From the NCBI GenBank assembly GCA_024742305.1, contig JANSYQ010000006.1, positions 129,240 to 177,296 of the forward strand: 48,057 nt of DNA. Direction: 5' to 3'. The notes below the pieces were generated by a model. It worked only from the letters and a program-made list of their open reading frames with translations. It did no database searches and was not told the origin of the DNA. The position numbers and the translations under genes are program-made. The DNA is from a bacterium (lineage in GTDB: Bacteria; Bacteroidota; Bacteroidia; Flavobacteriales_D; Crocinitomicaceae). Numbering within the stretch: the first letter of the stretch is position 1; every line of letters begins with the position of its first letter. This document shows, one piece after another, positions 43,208 through 48,057 of this stretch.

Positions 43208-44659
43208 CTATGGCATGATCAACAACAACCCGTAATTCAATTCCGATTTGGAAATCTCCACTTTTGTTGCTAGTTCAATTTGCTTGATACGAACCTCGAG
43301 GAACTTCAATTCTCGCGCATTAATCATAAACAAGGAGCTTTCGCCATTATCGAACAACATTTGCTCTGCTTCGAGAAGATCTGAAGCGGCTTCAATGGTT
43401 TCTCCAATGATTTCGTACTGACCCGTGAGGTTTTCGATCGTGTTTCTCGCAGCGCCCAACTGATACTGTAATTTCGCATTGATTTCCGCTCCCTTTAACT
43501 GCTGCGACTCCACTTTTAACTCACCGATTCTAACATCGGCGCGTTCACGGCGTGTGAATAGCGGATACTTCAACTTCGCTCCCCAAGTGTAATCTGCCAC
43601 TGTATACTCCGAGAAAAATCCAGTAGTTGCGGGTTCATTCAAAGCTCGGTACTCCAAAGTTAATTTTGGCTTGAGGTATTCGCGCTTCAATCGTAAATCT
43701 ACCTGCTGACGTGCTACTTCCAGTTGGTTCAATTCTGCCAATGGATGATTTTGAATCACGGAGTTCAAATCGAAAAGTATGTCCATTCCTTGCACGACTT
43801 CGCTAATCTTGCTTGGCACAGCACCGTCCAACTGTAAAGGAATAAAACCTTGGTCCCATAAGTAGATTTCTAGCTTTAAACTGGCATTTTGCCAATCTAA
43901 GAGCGACTGCTGATAACTCAATTGACGGCTTTGGAACTGCATAGAAGCCTCAGTGATGTATATCTCAGGAAGGTCGCCAAATTCCACATACGATTTCACT
44001 GCTTCTAGTCGCGACTCTGCGGCAACCAAAGCATCCGAATAGACCTGTAAAATTTCGTATGCTTTCGCCCATTTCCAGTAGGCAATGGTAGCCTCGTTCA
44101 TTAGTTGGTTGGTCATGACACGCTGCTCCAACAAGGTCATGTCTTCGTACAGTCGCGCTTTTTTCAACTCAGCACGACGCTGATCAATCAACAATCCGTT
44201 CCCCAGTTCGAGGTTCAGTCCGGCATACCACAAACCATCTTCCGGAAGTCGTGCTTCGGGGTTCAAAAAGACGCCATCGGTTTGCATATATCCCGCCTCG
44301 GCTGTCAGCCCGAACCACGTAGGAATTTTCAGATTTCCGTCCAAATGACTGTAATACTGCTTGTCGTCGAAGTATTTCTGCTTGGCACTTCCGTTCACCA
44401 CCGGATCGAATCCTCCTTTGGCTCCTTGCACGCCGCGAGCTCCGGCTTCCGCCTTCATTCTAGCTCGGAAAACCATAGGGTGATGCTTCATGACACGCTC
44501 AATAAACTCGTCATAAGTCATTACGGAGTCGGCAACTTTAGTAGTGTCTGAGCTACTCTCCACAGTGATGTCAAGCGTATCCAACTGGGTATTTCCAAAG
44601 AAAAAGATACCCAGCAGGAAAACGAGCAACAAGGCGCTATTTTTTCTCTTTAATTGCAT
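43208..44659 (-). CDS. TolC-family outer-membrane efflux protein
   Basis: Outer-membrane channel of a tripartite exporter. The 483-residue protein has a signal-like N-terminus (LLLVFLLGIFFFGN), a TolC repeat start YDEFIERVMKHHPMVFRARM near residues 50-69, and long amphipathic helices with Q/E/L/R heptads in two similar halves (for example ARLYEDMTLLEQRVMTNQL and AARNTIENLTGQYEIIGE). It overlaps the adaptor gene by 23 nt and is the last gene of the ABC/HlyD/TolC operon. Confidence 0.9.
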   Translation of the reverse strand: MQLKRKNSALLLVFLLGIFFFGNTQLDTLDITVESSSDTTKVADSVMTYDEFIERVMKHHPMVFRARMKAEAGARGVQGAKGGFDPVVNGSAKQKYFDDKQYYSHLDGNLKIPTWFGLTAEAGYMQTDGVFLNPEARLPEDGLWYAGLNLELGNGLLIDQRRAELKKARLYEDMTLLEQRVMTNQLMNEATIAYWKWAKAYEILQVYSDALVAAESRLEAVKSYVEFGDLPEIYITEASMQFQSRQLSYQQSLLDWQNASLKLEIYLWDQGFIPLQLDGAVPSKISEVVQGMDILFDLNSVIQNHPLAELNQLEVARQQVDLRLKREYLKPKLTLEYRALNEPATTGFFSEYTVADYTWGAKLKYPLFTRRERADVRIGELKVESQQLKGAEINAKLQYQLGAARNTIENLTGQYEIIGETIEAASDLLEAEQMLFDNGESSLFMINARELKFLEVRIKQIELATKVEISKSELNYGLLLIMP

Positions 44660-46001
44660 CTCCGGTAACTTTGTCCGTTTTAGGTTTGTAATACTCCGGT
44701 GGGAATCCGTTCACCTGTCGCCACAATTCGTACCAAATTGGCACATCGTTCAACAAGATCATTGCTTTGAGTCCTGCTCCGTAACGTAAGGCTTTCGGCC
44801 AAGGGACATCACGCTCATCGGGCTTAATCAACATGCGGTACTTTCCATTATCACCAATGTACTGATCAATGGCGTAAATCTCTCCACCGTAGGTACCGTA
44901 GCTCGCATCGGGCCATCCTGAGAAGACAATCGCTGGCCAACCGTCGAATTGAATTCGGACGTGTTCACCAACGTGCATCAGCGGCAAATCAATCGGTTCA
45001 ATGTAAATCTCTGCTGCCAATTCGTATTCGTCAGGCATGATGCTAATTACCGGCTGACCTTCTTTAATGGTTTCTCCAATCCCCGTTACGAAAGTCTTAG
45101 TTACGTAGCCACTTTGCGGGGCCAAAATGTAGTAGTAACCGGTTCGTTTCTTGTAGTTGCTATACTGGTTCTCCATTTTGTTAATACTCCCTTCTGAATC
45201 CAAACGATTCGAGGTTGTCGTCAGCTTCTCAGACAAGATTTTCGCTTGGTATGTGTCGTATTCTGCTCGAATGGTAGAAATATCAACTCGTAAACGAATC
45301 AACTCTGTTTGGCTATTGTACCAGTTATTCCGTGCCTCTGTTTCTTTGGCTAATGTCTCTTGATATTTCAATCGGCGCTTTTCCAAATCCGTTAAGGACT
45401 TCACTCCGCGCTGGTACAAGCTGTCCATACGTTCGTACTGATACTCGGCCGTCTGCAAATCAATGATAGCTGCTTGTAGTTTAATGCTATCGTTCTGCAC
45501 CTTAAGCTTTGCCTGTTGCATCTTCATTTGCGCCTGATCGAGTTTCAATTTTTGTTGATCTCGCAACGCCTCCAATTGTGCTTCCTGGGCACTCTCTTTC
45601 TGTGAGTACGCGTCTACAACTCCCTTTTTCAGGTTGATTTGATTCTTGGTCCGTTCCAACAGTCGGTCATCCATGTAGGCGTCCTTGATCTCTGAGATAA
45701 CCATTAACGTATCTCCTTTATCCACACGCTGACCTTCGAAGACCAACCACTGATCTACTCTACCTGCAATGATCGAGTGAATCGTTTGTGGACGGTGCTC
45801 AGGAAGCACTGTGGTAACCACTCCTGTGGTGGAAACGTTCTGCGTCCAAGGTAATAACATAATCACGAAAACGGTGAAGAACGTCCATTTCAACATGCGA
45901 ATCATCAGACGCTTCGTTTTTTTCGACTCTACGTAATTTAGCGTCGAAAACACGTTCCAGTTCATGCGGTCCTGGATCTTATTTTCTGAAATGTTTAACA
46001 T
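44637..46001 (-). CDS. HlyD-type periplasmic adaptor (membrane fusion protein)
   Basis: Bridges inner-membrane ABC transporter and TolC. The 454-residue protein has a short cytoplasmic N-terminus, one membrane helix at about residues 37-52 (WTFFTVFVIMLLPW), two half-lipoyl motifs (SIIAGRVDQWLVFEGQRVDKGD and ILAPQSGYVTKTFVTGIGE) and a coiled-coil hairpin at about 110-275 rich in Q/K/L/E. The beta-barrel part follows (EIYIEPIDLPLMHVGEHVR). It overlaps the ABC gene by 7 nt and the TolC gene by 23 nt. Confidence 0.92.
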   Translation of the reverse strand: MLNISENKIQDRMNWNVFSTLNYVESKKTKRLMIRMLKWTFFTVFVIMLLPWTQNVSTTGVVTTVLPEHRPQTIHSIIAGRVDQWLVFEGQRVDKGDTLMVISEIKDAYMDDRLLERTKNQINLKKGVVDAYSQKESAQEAQLEALRDQQKLKLDQAQMKMQQAKLKVQNDSIKLQAAIIDLQTAEYQYERMDSLYQRGVKSLTDLEKRRLKYQETLAKETEARNNWYNSQTELIRLRVDISTIRAEYDTYQAKILSEKLTTTSNRLDSEGSINKMENQYSNYKKRTGYYYILAPQSGYVTKTFVTGIGETIKEGQPVISIMPDEYELAAEIYIEPIDLPLMHVGEHVRIQFDGWPAIVFSGWPDASYGTYGGEIYAIDQYIGDNGKYRMLIKPDERDVPWPKALRYGAGLKAMILLNDVPIWYELWRQVNGFPPEYYKPKTDKVTGDAIKEKK

Positions 46002-47680
46002 GATATATCTTTTATGTCAATAACTTCTCCTCTGTCGAGCACCACGCGTCGGTACTTTAAATTTTTCAGATTCTCCAAAGGCTGGGAGCTTGTGAGTAGA
46101 ACGGTCCACTCGTGGTCATGATCCAGCAAGAACTGAAGAATATTCATTCGATCTTTTTCACTGAAGACCGAAAAACTGTTTTCTAGCAACAACAATCTTG
46201 GTCGATCTACAATACTTCGTGCAATGAGGATTTTTGCCGTAGTACTTTTGGAGAACTGTCGACCTTGCGGTAATACACGCGTATCATAACCATACGGTAA
46301 ATCGTTGATAAGTGAAGACAATCCAAGAGCTTCTGTTGCCCAACGTACATTTTCAAATGTGGCACCGTCTCTTCCCAGGGTGATGTTTTCGAGCAAACTT
46401 CCTTCAAAGAGCGCCTCATCTCGGAGATAACCGCCAATTCCAGAACGCAAAGACTCAGGACAGTAGTTATTTACCGGAATGCTATCCATCACGATGGAAC
46501 CTCGGCTTGGGCTATACAATCCACCGATGAGGTATAGCAAGGTTGATTTTCCACTATCATTTTGACCGGAAATAACTACGCGTTCACCAGACTCAATATC
46601 AAGGTTGATGTTGTTTAACACAGTTTTGTTCTCTTCCGGATATTCAAAAGTTACTTGATTCAGATTTACCTCAAGTCCTTTCTTTCCTCCGTTCAAGCGA
46701 ATACCTCCTTCGGTATCCAATTCCAAGTCAGTTACCTGTGCAATTTTCTCAAGTGAAGTCAGGATATCGTAAATCGTATCGAAGTTCAACATCACTTTTT
46801 CGATCGAGTTCATGACCAATAGGATGATGATTTCCGCCGCCACGAACTGACCGATGTTCAATTGCTGTTCAATTACCAGCAAGCCACCGATGAGCAACAA
46901 TCCAAAGGCAACCAGTGCTTTGAACCCAACCATCAGTCCATATTGATTTACCAGCACAGAGAAGTGTGATTCCCGCGCTCGAATGTATCCTTCTGTTTTG
47001 GTGTTCACTTCGTTGAGTGGTAACTGCGTTTCACCCGCCAATTTAAAGGTGTAGTTGGCCTTCGCTACTTCCTGTAACCAGTGTGCTATTTGATACTTTC
47101 GTTTCGATTCATCCAAACTAGTTTCAAGTCCACGGCGAACGGTTACTCGTAGAATCAACATAACGATTACAATGAGGAACAAACTAAAAAGAATGAAAAA
47201 TGGGTGGTACAAAGAAAGTAGGATCAATCCGAAAAAAGCCTGGATACCAGCCGACGAGAAATCGATCATAATCTTTGGCAGCGCCTTTTGAATGGAAACG
47301 ATATCAAAGAAGCGATTCATTAACTCGGGTGCATAATGTTTGTGTAAACGCTCCAATCGGATTCTCGGAACTCGGTAGGCAAACTCGAAGGCTGCTCGGG
47401 AGAAAACCTTTTGCTGCAAGTTCTCCGTTATGTGCAACTGTTTAATCTGCAGGATTCCCGAAAGCGCGATACCTCCTACTACGAAGAAGATAAGTACAAT
47501 CCACGAGGTACTGACCGCGCCCCCTTGAATTAAGTTGATAATGGCTTGAATCCCGATAGGAAGCGACAGGTTGATCAACCCAATAAAGATGGCATAGATA
47601 TAAATATTCCGAATCTCGATTTTATCAGGCTTCAGCAAGAGCCAAAATCGTTTCAACGGCGTTAATTTCTGATTTTCCAT
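45995..47680 (-). CDS. ABC exporter-like protein with degenerate ATPase motifs
   Basis: The 561-residue protein has a six-helix ABC-exporter membrane domain (residues 20-310) and a nucleotide-binding domain (about 335-561), without a C39 peptidase domain. Walker A is intact (GQNDSGKST, 372-380). The other motifs deviate: R420 at the Q-loop position (GGYLRDEALFEG), FSKST at 476-480 instead of LSGGQ, E500-N501 after LLLL in place of the Walker B Asp-Glu, and Ser531 at the H-switch position (LLTSSQP). Adaptor and TolC genes follow in the same operon, so it belongs to a type I-like export complex. Either the domain binds but hardly hydrolyses ATP, or it pairs with a competent partner encoded elsewhere. 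Confidence 0.85.
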   Translation of the reverse strand: MENQKLTPLKRFWLLLKPDKIEIRNIYIYAIFIGLINLSLPIGIQAIINLIQGGAVSTSWIVLIFFVVGGIALSGILQIKQLHITENLQQKVFSRAAFEFAYRVPRIRLERLHKHYAPELMNRFFDIVSIQKALPKIMIDFSSAGIQAFFGLILLSLYHPFFILFSLFLIVIVMLILRVTVRRGLETSLDESKRKYQIAHWLQEVAKANYTFKLAGETQLPLNEVNTKTEGYIRARESHFSVLVNQYGLMVGFKALVAFGLLLIGGLLVIEQQLNIGQFVAAEIIILLVMNSIEKVMLNFDTIYDILTSLEKIAQVTDLELDTEGGIRLNGGKKGLEVNLNQVTFEYPEENKTVLNNINLDIESGERVVISGQNDSGKSTLLYLIGGLYSPSRGSIVMDSIPVNNYCPESLRSGIGGYLRDEALFEGSLLENITLGRDGATFENVRWATEALGLSSLINDLPYGYDTRVLPQGRQFSKSTTAKILIARSIVDRPRLLLLENSFSVFSEKDRMNILQFLLDHDHEWTVLLTSSQPLENLKNLKYRRVVLDRGEVIDIKDISC

Positions 47681-47756: not shown

Positions 47757-48005
47757 TCATTCTTCAAGAATTTTTTCCGTTAGTTTTCCGTAGAAAGAAC
47801 ACACAGCGTCTTCTCCGTCAATTACATTTGTCAATCGTGGTAAATGACTGGTAAAGAAACGTTGATGATGCGTTCCTTCAATGATAGTAGACACCAACAT
47901 GTGGGGATATTTAAAATCTGGGCGCATTTCTTCAATGATTCCGGCGACGAGGTGCACAACATCTTTGTAGGGAACAAAGAAACCATGACGATTGTCCTCA
48001 GCTAC
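47757..48005 (-). CDS. C-terminal fragment of an unrecognised protein
   Basis: The last 80 or so residues of a gene read leftward and end ...YGKLTEKILEE. The fragment has PYKDVVHLVAGIIEEM, YPHMLVSTIIEGTHHQRFF and HLPRLTNVIDGEDAV. I do not recognise the family; a TetR-type regulator was considered because of the neighbouring exporter, but nothing shows it. Upstream of 48005 the sequence becomes an inverted copy of 47808-47859 and the frame meets a stop there, so the true 5' part is missing. Confidence 0.6.
   Translation of the reverse strand, partial: VAEDNRHGFFVPYKDVVHLVAGIIEEMRPDFKYPHMLVSTIIEGTHHQRFFTSHLPRLTNVIDGEDAVCSFYGKLTEKILEE
47808..47859. repeat. Left arm of a 52-bp perfect inverted repeat
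   Basis: This stretch, part of the truncated gene, is repeated exactly in reverse complement at 48006-48057, the very end of the window. Confidence 0.95.
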
Positions 48006-48057
48006 TTTCTTTACCAGTCATTTACCACGATTGACAAATGTAATTGACGGAGAAGAC
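48006..48057. repeat. Right arm of the 52-bp perfect inverted repeat (window end)
   Basis: The exact reverse complement of 47808-47859, with 146 nt between the arms, ending at the last base. Identity over 52 nt within a coding region points to a chimeric fold-back at a contig end and not to a natural element. Confidence 0.95.

Follow-up and report, generated by a model that had tools for sequence, protein, structure and literature searches.

The window analysed here is the whole stretch of 48,057 nucleotides at positions 129,240 to 177,296 of contig JANSYQ010000006.1 (assembly GCA_024742305.1), from a bacterium of the Crocinitomicaceae in the phylum Bacteroidota. The gene under study encodes a half-transporter of the ATP-binding cassette (ABC) exporter type, that is a transmembrane domain (TMD) fused to a nucleotide-binding domain (NBD), in which nearly all of the ATPase motifs have been lost. 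It is followed by genes for a HlyD family periplasmic adaptor and a TolC family outer-membrane channel, which also overlap each other, and it stands beside a probable TetR-type regulator gene (Table 1). The reading frame of the ABC gene is uninterrupted, with 561 codons and zero internal stops.

Table 1. Features of the ABC exporter locus in the window (positions in window coordinates; residues are those of the ABC protein; aa, amino acids; TM6, transmembrane helix 6).
Feature	Position	Strand	Remark
ABC exporter half-transporter, 561 aa, predicted to be ATPase-dead	45995..47680	-	stop codon included
TMD, residues 1-320	46721..47680	-	strongly conserved family-wide
Degenerate NBD, residues 335-561	45998..46678	-	ABC fold retained in AlphaFold2 model
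Intracellular loop 2 / coupling helix 2 region, residues 205-222	47015..47068	-	decayed in NBD-less relatives
Glu283 in TM6	46832..46834	-	conserved charged TMD residue
Walker A, GQNDSGKST, residues 372-380	46541..46567	-	intact
Q-loop position, Arg420	46421..46423	-	replaces Gln
Signature position, FSKST, residues 476-480	46241..46255	-	replaces LSGGQ
Walker B Asp / catalytic Glu positions, Glu500-Asn501	46178..46183	-	
H-switch position, Ser531-Ser532	46085..46090	-	
HlyD family periplasmic adaptor gene	44637..46001	-	start overlaps ABC gene end by 7 bases
TolC family outer-membrane channel (OEP) gene	43208..44659	-	
Probable TetR-type regulator gene	47757..48005	-	3' part only, cut by contig end

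Judged from its domains and predicted fold, the window protein is a type IV ABC exporter, with a six-helix TMD fused to an NBD of the ABC fold. Pfam recognises both parts, ABC_membrane at 38.3 bits (cut-off 28) and ABC_tran at 69 bits (cut-off 25), and an AlphaFold2 model built on an alignment of the window protein and 80 relatives shows the full exporter fold including the NBD (predicted local distance difference test, pLDDT, 85.2; predicted TM-score, pTM, 0.70). The nearest structures to the model are TM287/288, PCAT1, TmrAB and HlyB, with TM-scores of 0.85-0.88 to the top TM287/288 and PCAT1 chains. The NCBIfam model of LssB (TIGR03375) is matched at 180.2 bits, below its curated cut-off of 693.1, and the match begins at model position 139, so that the N-terminal domain of LssB is absent from the window protein.

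What an active ABC ATPase needs is mostly gone. Walker A is in place, but the LSGGQ signature, the Walker B Asp, the catalytic Glu, the Q-loop Gln and the H-switch His are all missing from the translated frame, just as a preliminary description of the gene, made from the sequence alone, had it. That description placed the H-switch at Ser531, and there is indeed no His at 531, 532 or 533, but the column is probably better assigned to Ser532, which aligns with the His kept in a sister group treated below (WTIVTISHDP); a pairwise alignment with P-glycoprotein puts it at Gln533. The frame is not decaying, and the claim that it is under selection and no pseudogene holds: two relatives with 93-94% identity are full length, and the non-synonymous substitution rate (dN) against the two closest relatives, with the synonymous rate (dS) saturated, is 0.027-0.039 in the TMD and 0.065-0.066 in the NBD.

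The loss of ATPase motifs is a trait of the family and goes beyond chance. Eighty loci with 51-94% identity came from a scan of named genomes, and at E <= 1e-60 the protein is matched in 122 of 200 genomes from the window's own family. Removal of repeats with identical TMD cores left 153 rows, and setting aside the sister group (12 rows), the canonical paralogues, four NBD-less rows and a Sphingobium row (L188) gives 134 distinct NBD-bearing members, the window protein included; similar sequences do occur in other Bacteroidota, as had been believed. Five features were scored, namely the Q-loop Gln, the Gly-Gly of the signature, the Walker B Asp, the catalytic Glu and the H-switch His, and 109 members keep zero of them, 21 keep one, four keep two and none keeps more. 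The strict Gly-Gly rule also fails a canonical paralogue (L002, with LSVGQ), and we therefore give the count with a looser rule, Ser-x-Gly, as well: 81 members then keep zero, 48 one, five two and none more. Ser-x-Gly followed by Gln or Glu is found in 0/134. In a control family of canonical exporters from the same phylum, fetched alike, each of the five features is present in 30/30.

The four exact substitutions of the window protein are not conserved among its homologues; it is the loss itself that is. Residue 420 is S, M, R or T, residue 500 is E, K or D and residue 501 is D or N in most rows. The first Gly of the signature (residue 478) has become Lys or Arg in 88 members, a basic residue that might act like an arginine finger on the ATP bound by the partner. 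Homologues with fully canonical motifs, which the preliminary description had named as evidence that would speak against it, did not turn up in the own-family, phylum and plasmid searches, which covered Bacteroidota genomes and plasmid records.

The usual conservation pattern of ABC proteins is inverted in this family, the TMD being far better conserved than the NBD. Mean pairwise identity is 0.597 in the TMD and 0.358 in the NBD (n=134), compared with 0.313 and 0.582 for the canonical control (n=30); since overall divergence is not the same in the family and the control, the ratio of TMD to NBD has meaning only within each of them. In a 36-row alignment 37 of the 38 invariant columns fall within residues 1-312, and hardly any variation is seen at several charged TMD residues. 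Within the NBD the conservation is uneven. Among 81 rows (the window protein and 80 relatives) Gly372 and Gly377 of Walker A are invariant and Lys378 is kept in 79, which makes them more conserved than 93-95% of the NBD columns, and the A-loop Tyr347 is more conserved than 88% of them; the Q-loop and H-switch columns vary more than most, and those of the signature and Walker B are middling. Because Walker A has been selectively kept and dN is low in both domains, the NBD of the window's branch probably serves to bind nucleotide without hydrolysing it in the ordinary way, and is not junk. The suggestion made at the outset that the protein may bind ATP is supported, with Walker A and the A-loop Tyr among the best conserved columns of a domain in which the catalytic positions drift.

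Elsewhere in the family, beyond what the window alone could show, Walker A, or the NBD as a whole, is gone. Walker A is missing from 15 of 20 more distant members read, and on a tree of the TMD columns (quick method, 153 rows) its state needs 7 changes. The losses comprise two well-supported clades, one of 11 rows and one of 4, as well as some single rows; two rows (L102 and L109) are scored as losses solely by a change from Lys to Arg. NBD-less frames account for 4 matches, of 334-349 aa, in a phylum search of 296 genomes (75 with any match). In the families of two of these four they account for 12 matches in 101 genomes of the one (40 with any match) and for 34 matches in 33 of 101 genomes of the other (96 with any match). 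In total 46 distinct genomes of three Bacteroidota families hold a TMD alone, of about 335 aa, a tally made by eye from open-frame lengths of 334-424 aa with a 402-aa frame near a contig end (G531) excluded. For 22 distinct loci of these genomes the reading extends to the C-terminus, and in all of them (23/23 with a repeat counted) the protein stops within the linker between TMD and NBD, the start of the HlyD gene, estimated from alignment, lying -17 to +43 bases from the stop. Pfam scans of two of the proteins (L146 and L148) returned ABC_membrane only. The four NBD-less rows in the tree form a single clade (SH-aLRT 99), nested among degenerate NBD-bearing rows. A full-length member and one without the NBD can coexist, as they do in two genomes (G618 and G650).

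The coupling helix with which an ABC exporter's intracellular loop 2 docks on the NBD lies in residues 205-222 or thereabouts. In the NBD-less members this region (residues 205-222) is only 13% identical to the consensus of the Walker-A-keeping members, compared with 44% for the whole TMD, and just 4 of 289 windows of the same length are equally low. In their nearest NBD-bearing kin the loop is 60% identical and 211 of the 289 are as low, and the Walker-A-less members are intermediate, with 31% in the loop against 59% in the TMD. Intracellular loop 1 of the NBD-less TMDs has an identity to the consensus of 0.49, against 0.44 for the whole TMD.

The coupling to HlyD and TolC genes that had been described for the window is confirmed, and it recurs among the relatives. 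A HlyD gene lies downstream on the same strand in 129 of 129 family loci, a set that contains repeats of one sequence taken from two collections; the gap is at most 43 bases in 128 of them and 338 in the remaining one (L072). A HlyD gene likewise follows in 50 of 51 additional loci, the one in which it was not found being L160. TolC is present in 94 of the 129 loci, and at a laxer E-value it is missing from 34, all of which end within 187 bases of the HlyD frame. Upstream, an open reading frame (ORF) of adequate length is found in 66 of the 80 relatives' loci, of which 41 share the TetR-type C-terminal signature of the window, and the intact upstream gene beside one of them (L056) encodes a TetR_N domain (27.4 bits, cut-off 24). 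The TetR-type gene adjoining the operon suggests a small-molecule substrate. Taken as sequences, the family members show catalytic loss throughout and the TMD as the conserved part, and some clades that have kept the operon are without Walker A or the whole NBD.

The nearest relatives with more motifs are the sister group of 12 rows, where Walker A and Asp500 are kept in 12, Glu501 in 10 and the His in 8, while the signature has Gly-Gly in one and Ser-x-Gly in four, and the Q-loop Gln is kept in none. N-terminal extensions of about 165-250 aa, about the size of a C39-like domain, occur in three sister rows (L156-L158) and in two other members (L163 and L165), and Pfam recognised nothing in the extensions of the three that were scanned (L158, L163 and L165). 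Frames of similar length are seen in other sister rows. Relatives are also found on Sphingomonadales plasmids, in 15 records including the query's own, at 50-76% mutual identity, the Sphingobium member (L188) being 28% identical to the window protein. In six Sphingomonadales rows (L188, L263-L266 and L268) Walker A, the Asp-Glu pair and the His are all gone, and a partial signature is seen in L263 (LSVGE) and L264 (LSIGE). Adaptor-like and TolC genes lie downstream of the Sphingomonadales members, and the Sphingobium operon adjoins a DUF2309 gene. Glu283 is shared by all these groups: it is kept in 99% of the 134 NBD-bearing members, in 22/22 NBD-less, 12/12 sister and 6/6 Sphingomonadales rows, and the position is not Glu in five canonical paralogues. 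Since the sister group has it too, Glu283 is probably older than the loss of the ATPase.

The family may be an ABC exporter lineage in the course of becoming something else. The probable explanation of the locus is a tripartite exporter, presumably under TetR control, with an ABC-like inner-membrane protein, HlyD and TolC beside a TetR-type gene, whose ABC half-transporter would have lost ATP hydrolysis. Judged from its motifs, the window protein very likely carries out no productive hydrolysis, and it is likely that it still binds ATP. We hypothesize that a TMD dimer together with HlyD and TolC makes up a conduit that works without ATP hydrolysis, and that the NBD pair in the window's clade would bind ATP through Walker A and the A-loop and serve as a clamp, either structural or regulatory, and not as a motor. 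The weakest step concerns the driving force, which would be an ion gradient or the flow of substrate through the TMD, with SbmA/BacA and NBD-truncated LmrA as precedents; Glu283 in TM6 and other charged TMD residues would be no more than candidates for ion coupling. An ion gradient, argued by analogy, is a tentative proposal. A bolder reading, somewhat less likely than not, is that the widespread tripartite exporters of Bacteroidota and Sphingomonadales record the change of an ABC exporter into a secondary transporter that is driven by ions, is no ATPase and acts together with HlyD and TolC, separately from SbmA. The sister group, the ATP-binding and hydrolysis-dead forms such as the window protein, the Walker-A-less forms and the NBD-less forms might then, with the same reservation, be living stages of that change.

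Both precedents differ from the present family. The SbmA/BacA proteins (SLiPT), which are secondary peptide transporters, likewise descend from ABC exporters and do without an NBD, according to PMC13316013; the window protein, having kept its NBD, falls outside that description and some of its relatives fall within it. The same source describes SbmA as an importer that has additional TM0 helices and a glutamate ladder and whose probable ancestors are YddA-like proteins; the coupling helices lost in SbmA are paralleled by the decay of coupling helix 2 in our NBD-less members. Unlike SbmA, the family treated here is tied to HlyD and TolC and has degenerate intermediates that still bear an NBD. 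For the NBD-truncated LmrA-MD of Lactococcus, PMC6155054 and PMC2704374 state that the TMD moves substrate by ion coupling, and for full LmrA they treat ATP binding as a switch and point to a TM6 glutamate, E314. LmrA itself is an ATP-hydrolysing protein and LmrA-MD a laboratory construct, whereas the loss of the NBD is natural here; a TM6 glutamate is present in both, a likeness at the level of the helix. The type I secretion exporters HlyB and LssB differ from the window protein in that it has lost the ATPase motifs. A large review of tripartite systems (PMC8277102), among the passages found, brings up degenerate nucleotide sites solely in connection with heterodimers, TmrAB for example, and no published description of an ABC/HlyD/TolC family with lost ATPase was found in a literature search made mostly without subscription journals.

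Several points weigh against an exporter that has given up ATP as its source of energy. Walker A and the A-loop Tyr are strongly constrained in the window's relatives and dN of the NBD is low, because of which ATP probably still matters in the window's branch. At the signature 29 of the 134 members have Ser-x-Gly, and slow unconventional hydrolysis may take place with Glu500 as the Mg ligand, although Lys stands there in 27 of 81 rows. Glu283 is invariant also in the sister group that keeps more of the ATPase motifs, and so it is not specific to an ATP-free state. The sister group, which bears an NBD, is also rather divergent at loop 2 (28% against 38% in the TMD, with 64 of 289 windows equally low). 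The window protein could pair with a canonical ABC protein from another part of the genome, and the NBD-less forms may share an NBD in trans.

The first of the alternatives, an unlikely one, is an active ATPase of an unconventional kind, in which Glu500, Asp or Asn at 501 and the Lys or Arg of the FSK/LPR motif would handle Mg binding and contact with the gamma-phosphate. It would fit the conserved Walker A and A-loop, the frequent basic residue at the first Gly of the signature and the small number of residue pairs at 500/501 (KD 27, EN 22 and ED 22 of 81 rows), but it agrees poorly with the Lys at the Mg-ligand position and with the drift of the Q-loop and H-switch columns, and Walker A or the NBD has been lost elsewhere in the family. 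There is likewise a small chance that the protein is no pump at all, and serves as an inner-membrane docking platform for HlyD and TolC, with substrates that come from the periplasm or move passively. The TMD and HlyD genes staying together in 129 of 129 loci while the energy domain is dispensable is what one would expect of such a platform. The invariant columns are however spread across the helices and loops of the TMD, and the near-invariant charged residues exceed what a scaffold would seem to need.

The preliminary description had also considered that the protein is the degenerate half of a heterodimer, and this idea has gained little support. The degenerate-site half of known heterodimers has a motif state similar to that of the window protein, the model is close to the TmrAB and TM287/288 chains, and the genome encodes other ABC exporters, one of which would have to supply the canonical half. 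TmrAB, TM287/288 and TAP have, like the window protein, degenerate catalytic residues with Walker A kept and a closely matching fold, but they have one canonical site shared with the partner, and here none was found nearby; in another difference from them, some clades of this family have lost Walker A or the NBD. No adjacent ABC partner half was found in 140 loci searched with two canonical queries (the flanks vary, many being about 2.5 kb). A heterodimer is unlikely because another ABC-like ORF is present in only 2 of the 140 loci, each time more than 3 kb away. The other ABC proteins of the window genome are 23-27% identical to the window protein, and the five canonical paralogues that were compared are without most of the TMD residues conserved in the family, Arg123 and Asp126 being common to both. 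The NBD-less members, moreover, persist in the same operon position. As a second ABC half was not found nearby, a homodimer without a canonical partner seems quite likely.

Powering of the TMDs by a shared ATPase subunit that is encoded elsewhere and docks in trans is very unlikely. Intracellular loop 1 of the NBD-less members is near the family level, which speaks for such docking, but coupling helix 2 has decayed in them, which on balance speaks against it as far as sequence can, and in the NBD-bearing members the fused NBD would fill the dock. A search around four NBD-less loci (L146-L149, with flanks of at least about 2.5 kb on either side) revealed no further ABC-like ORF; an earlier pattern scan of the same loci was weaker, as ORF picking in L147 was swamped by long antisense frames and there was one chance-like match beside L148. 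A sequencing or assembly error, or a decaying pseudogene, is hardly conceivable even with a window that ends in a contig-terminal inverted repeat, and it is refuted by homologues from many independent genomes, which show the same losses in uninterrupted frames within intact operons.

Hydrolysis of ATP is the defining trait of ABC pumps, and the proposed ion-driven exporter would, if true, be a primary pump that has turned into a secondary one in nature, apart from SbmA. That the TMD of an ABC exporter can move substrates alone has previously been argued from truncated LmrA and SbmA, and the graded loss of the ATPase within a common and conserved operon lets one test it. The natural TMD-only proteins, with their about 335 aa, are material for structural and transport work, and the annotation "ABC transporter ATP-binding protein" can mislead on the energy source.

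Two minor observations concern the records themselves. A contig labelled Saccharospirillaceae (L061) carries a member of Bacteroidota type, and a phylum search around its genome returned seemingly the same Bacteroidota matches, so it is probably a mislabelled record. At the end of the window's own contig there is an exact 52-base inverted repeat (47808-47859 and 48006-48057), which truncates the TetR-type gene and is probably an assembly artefact.

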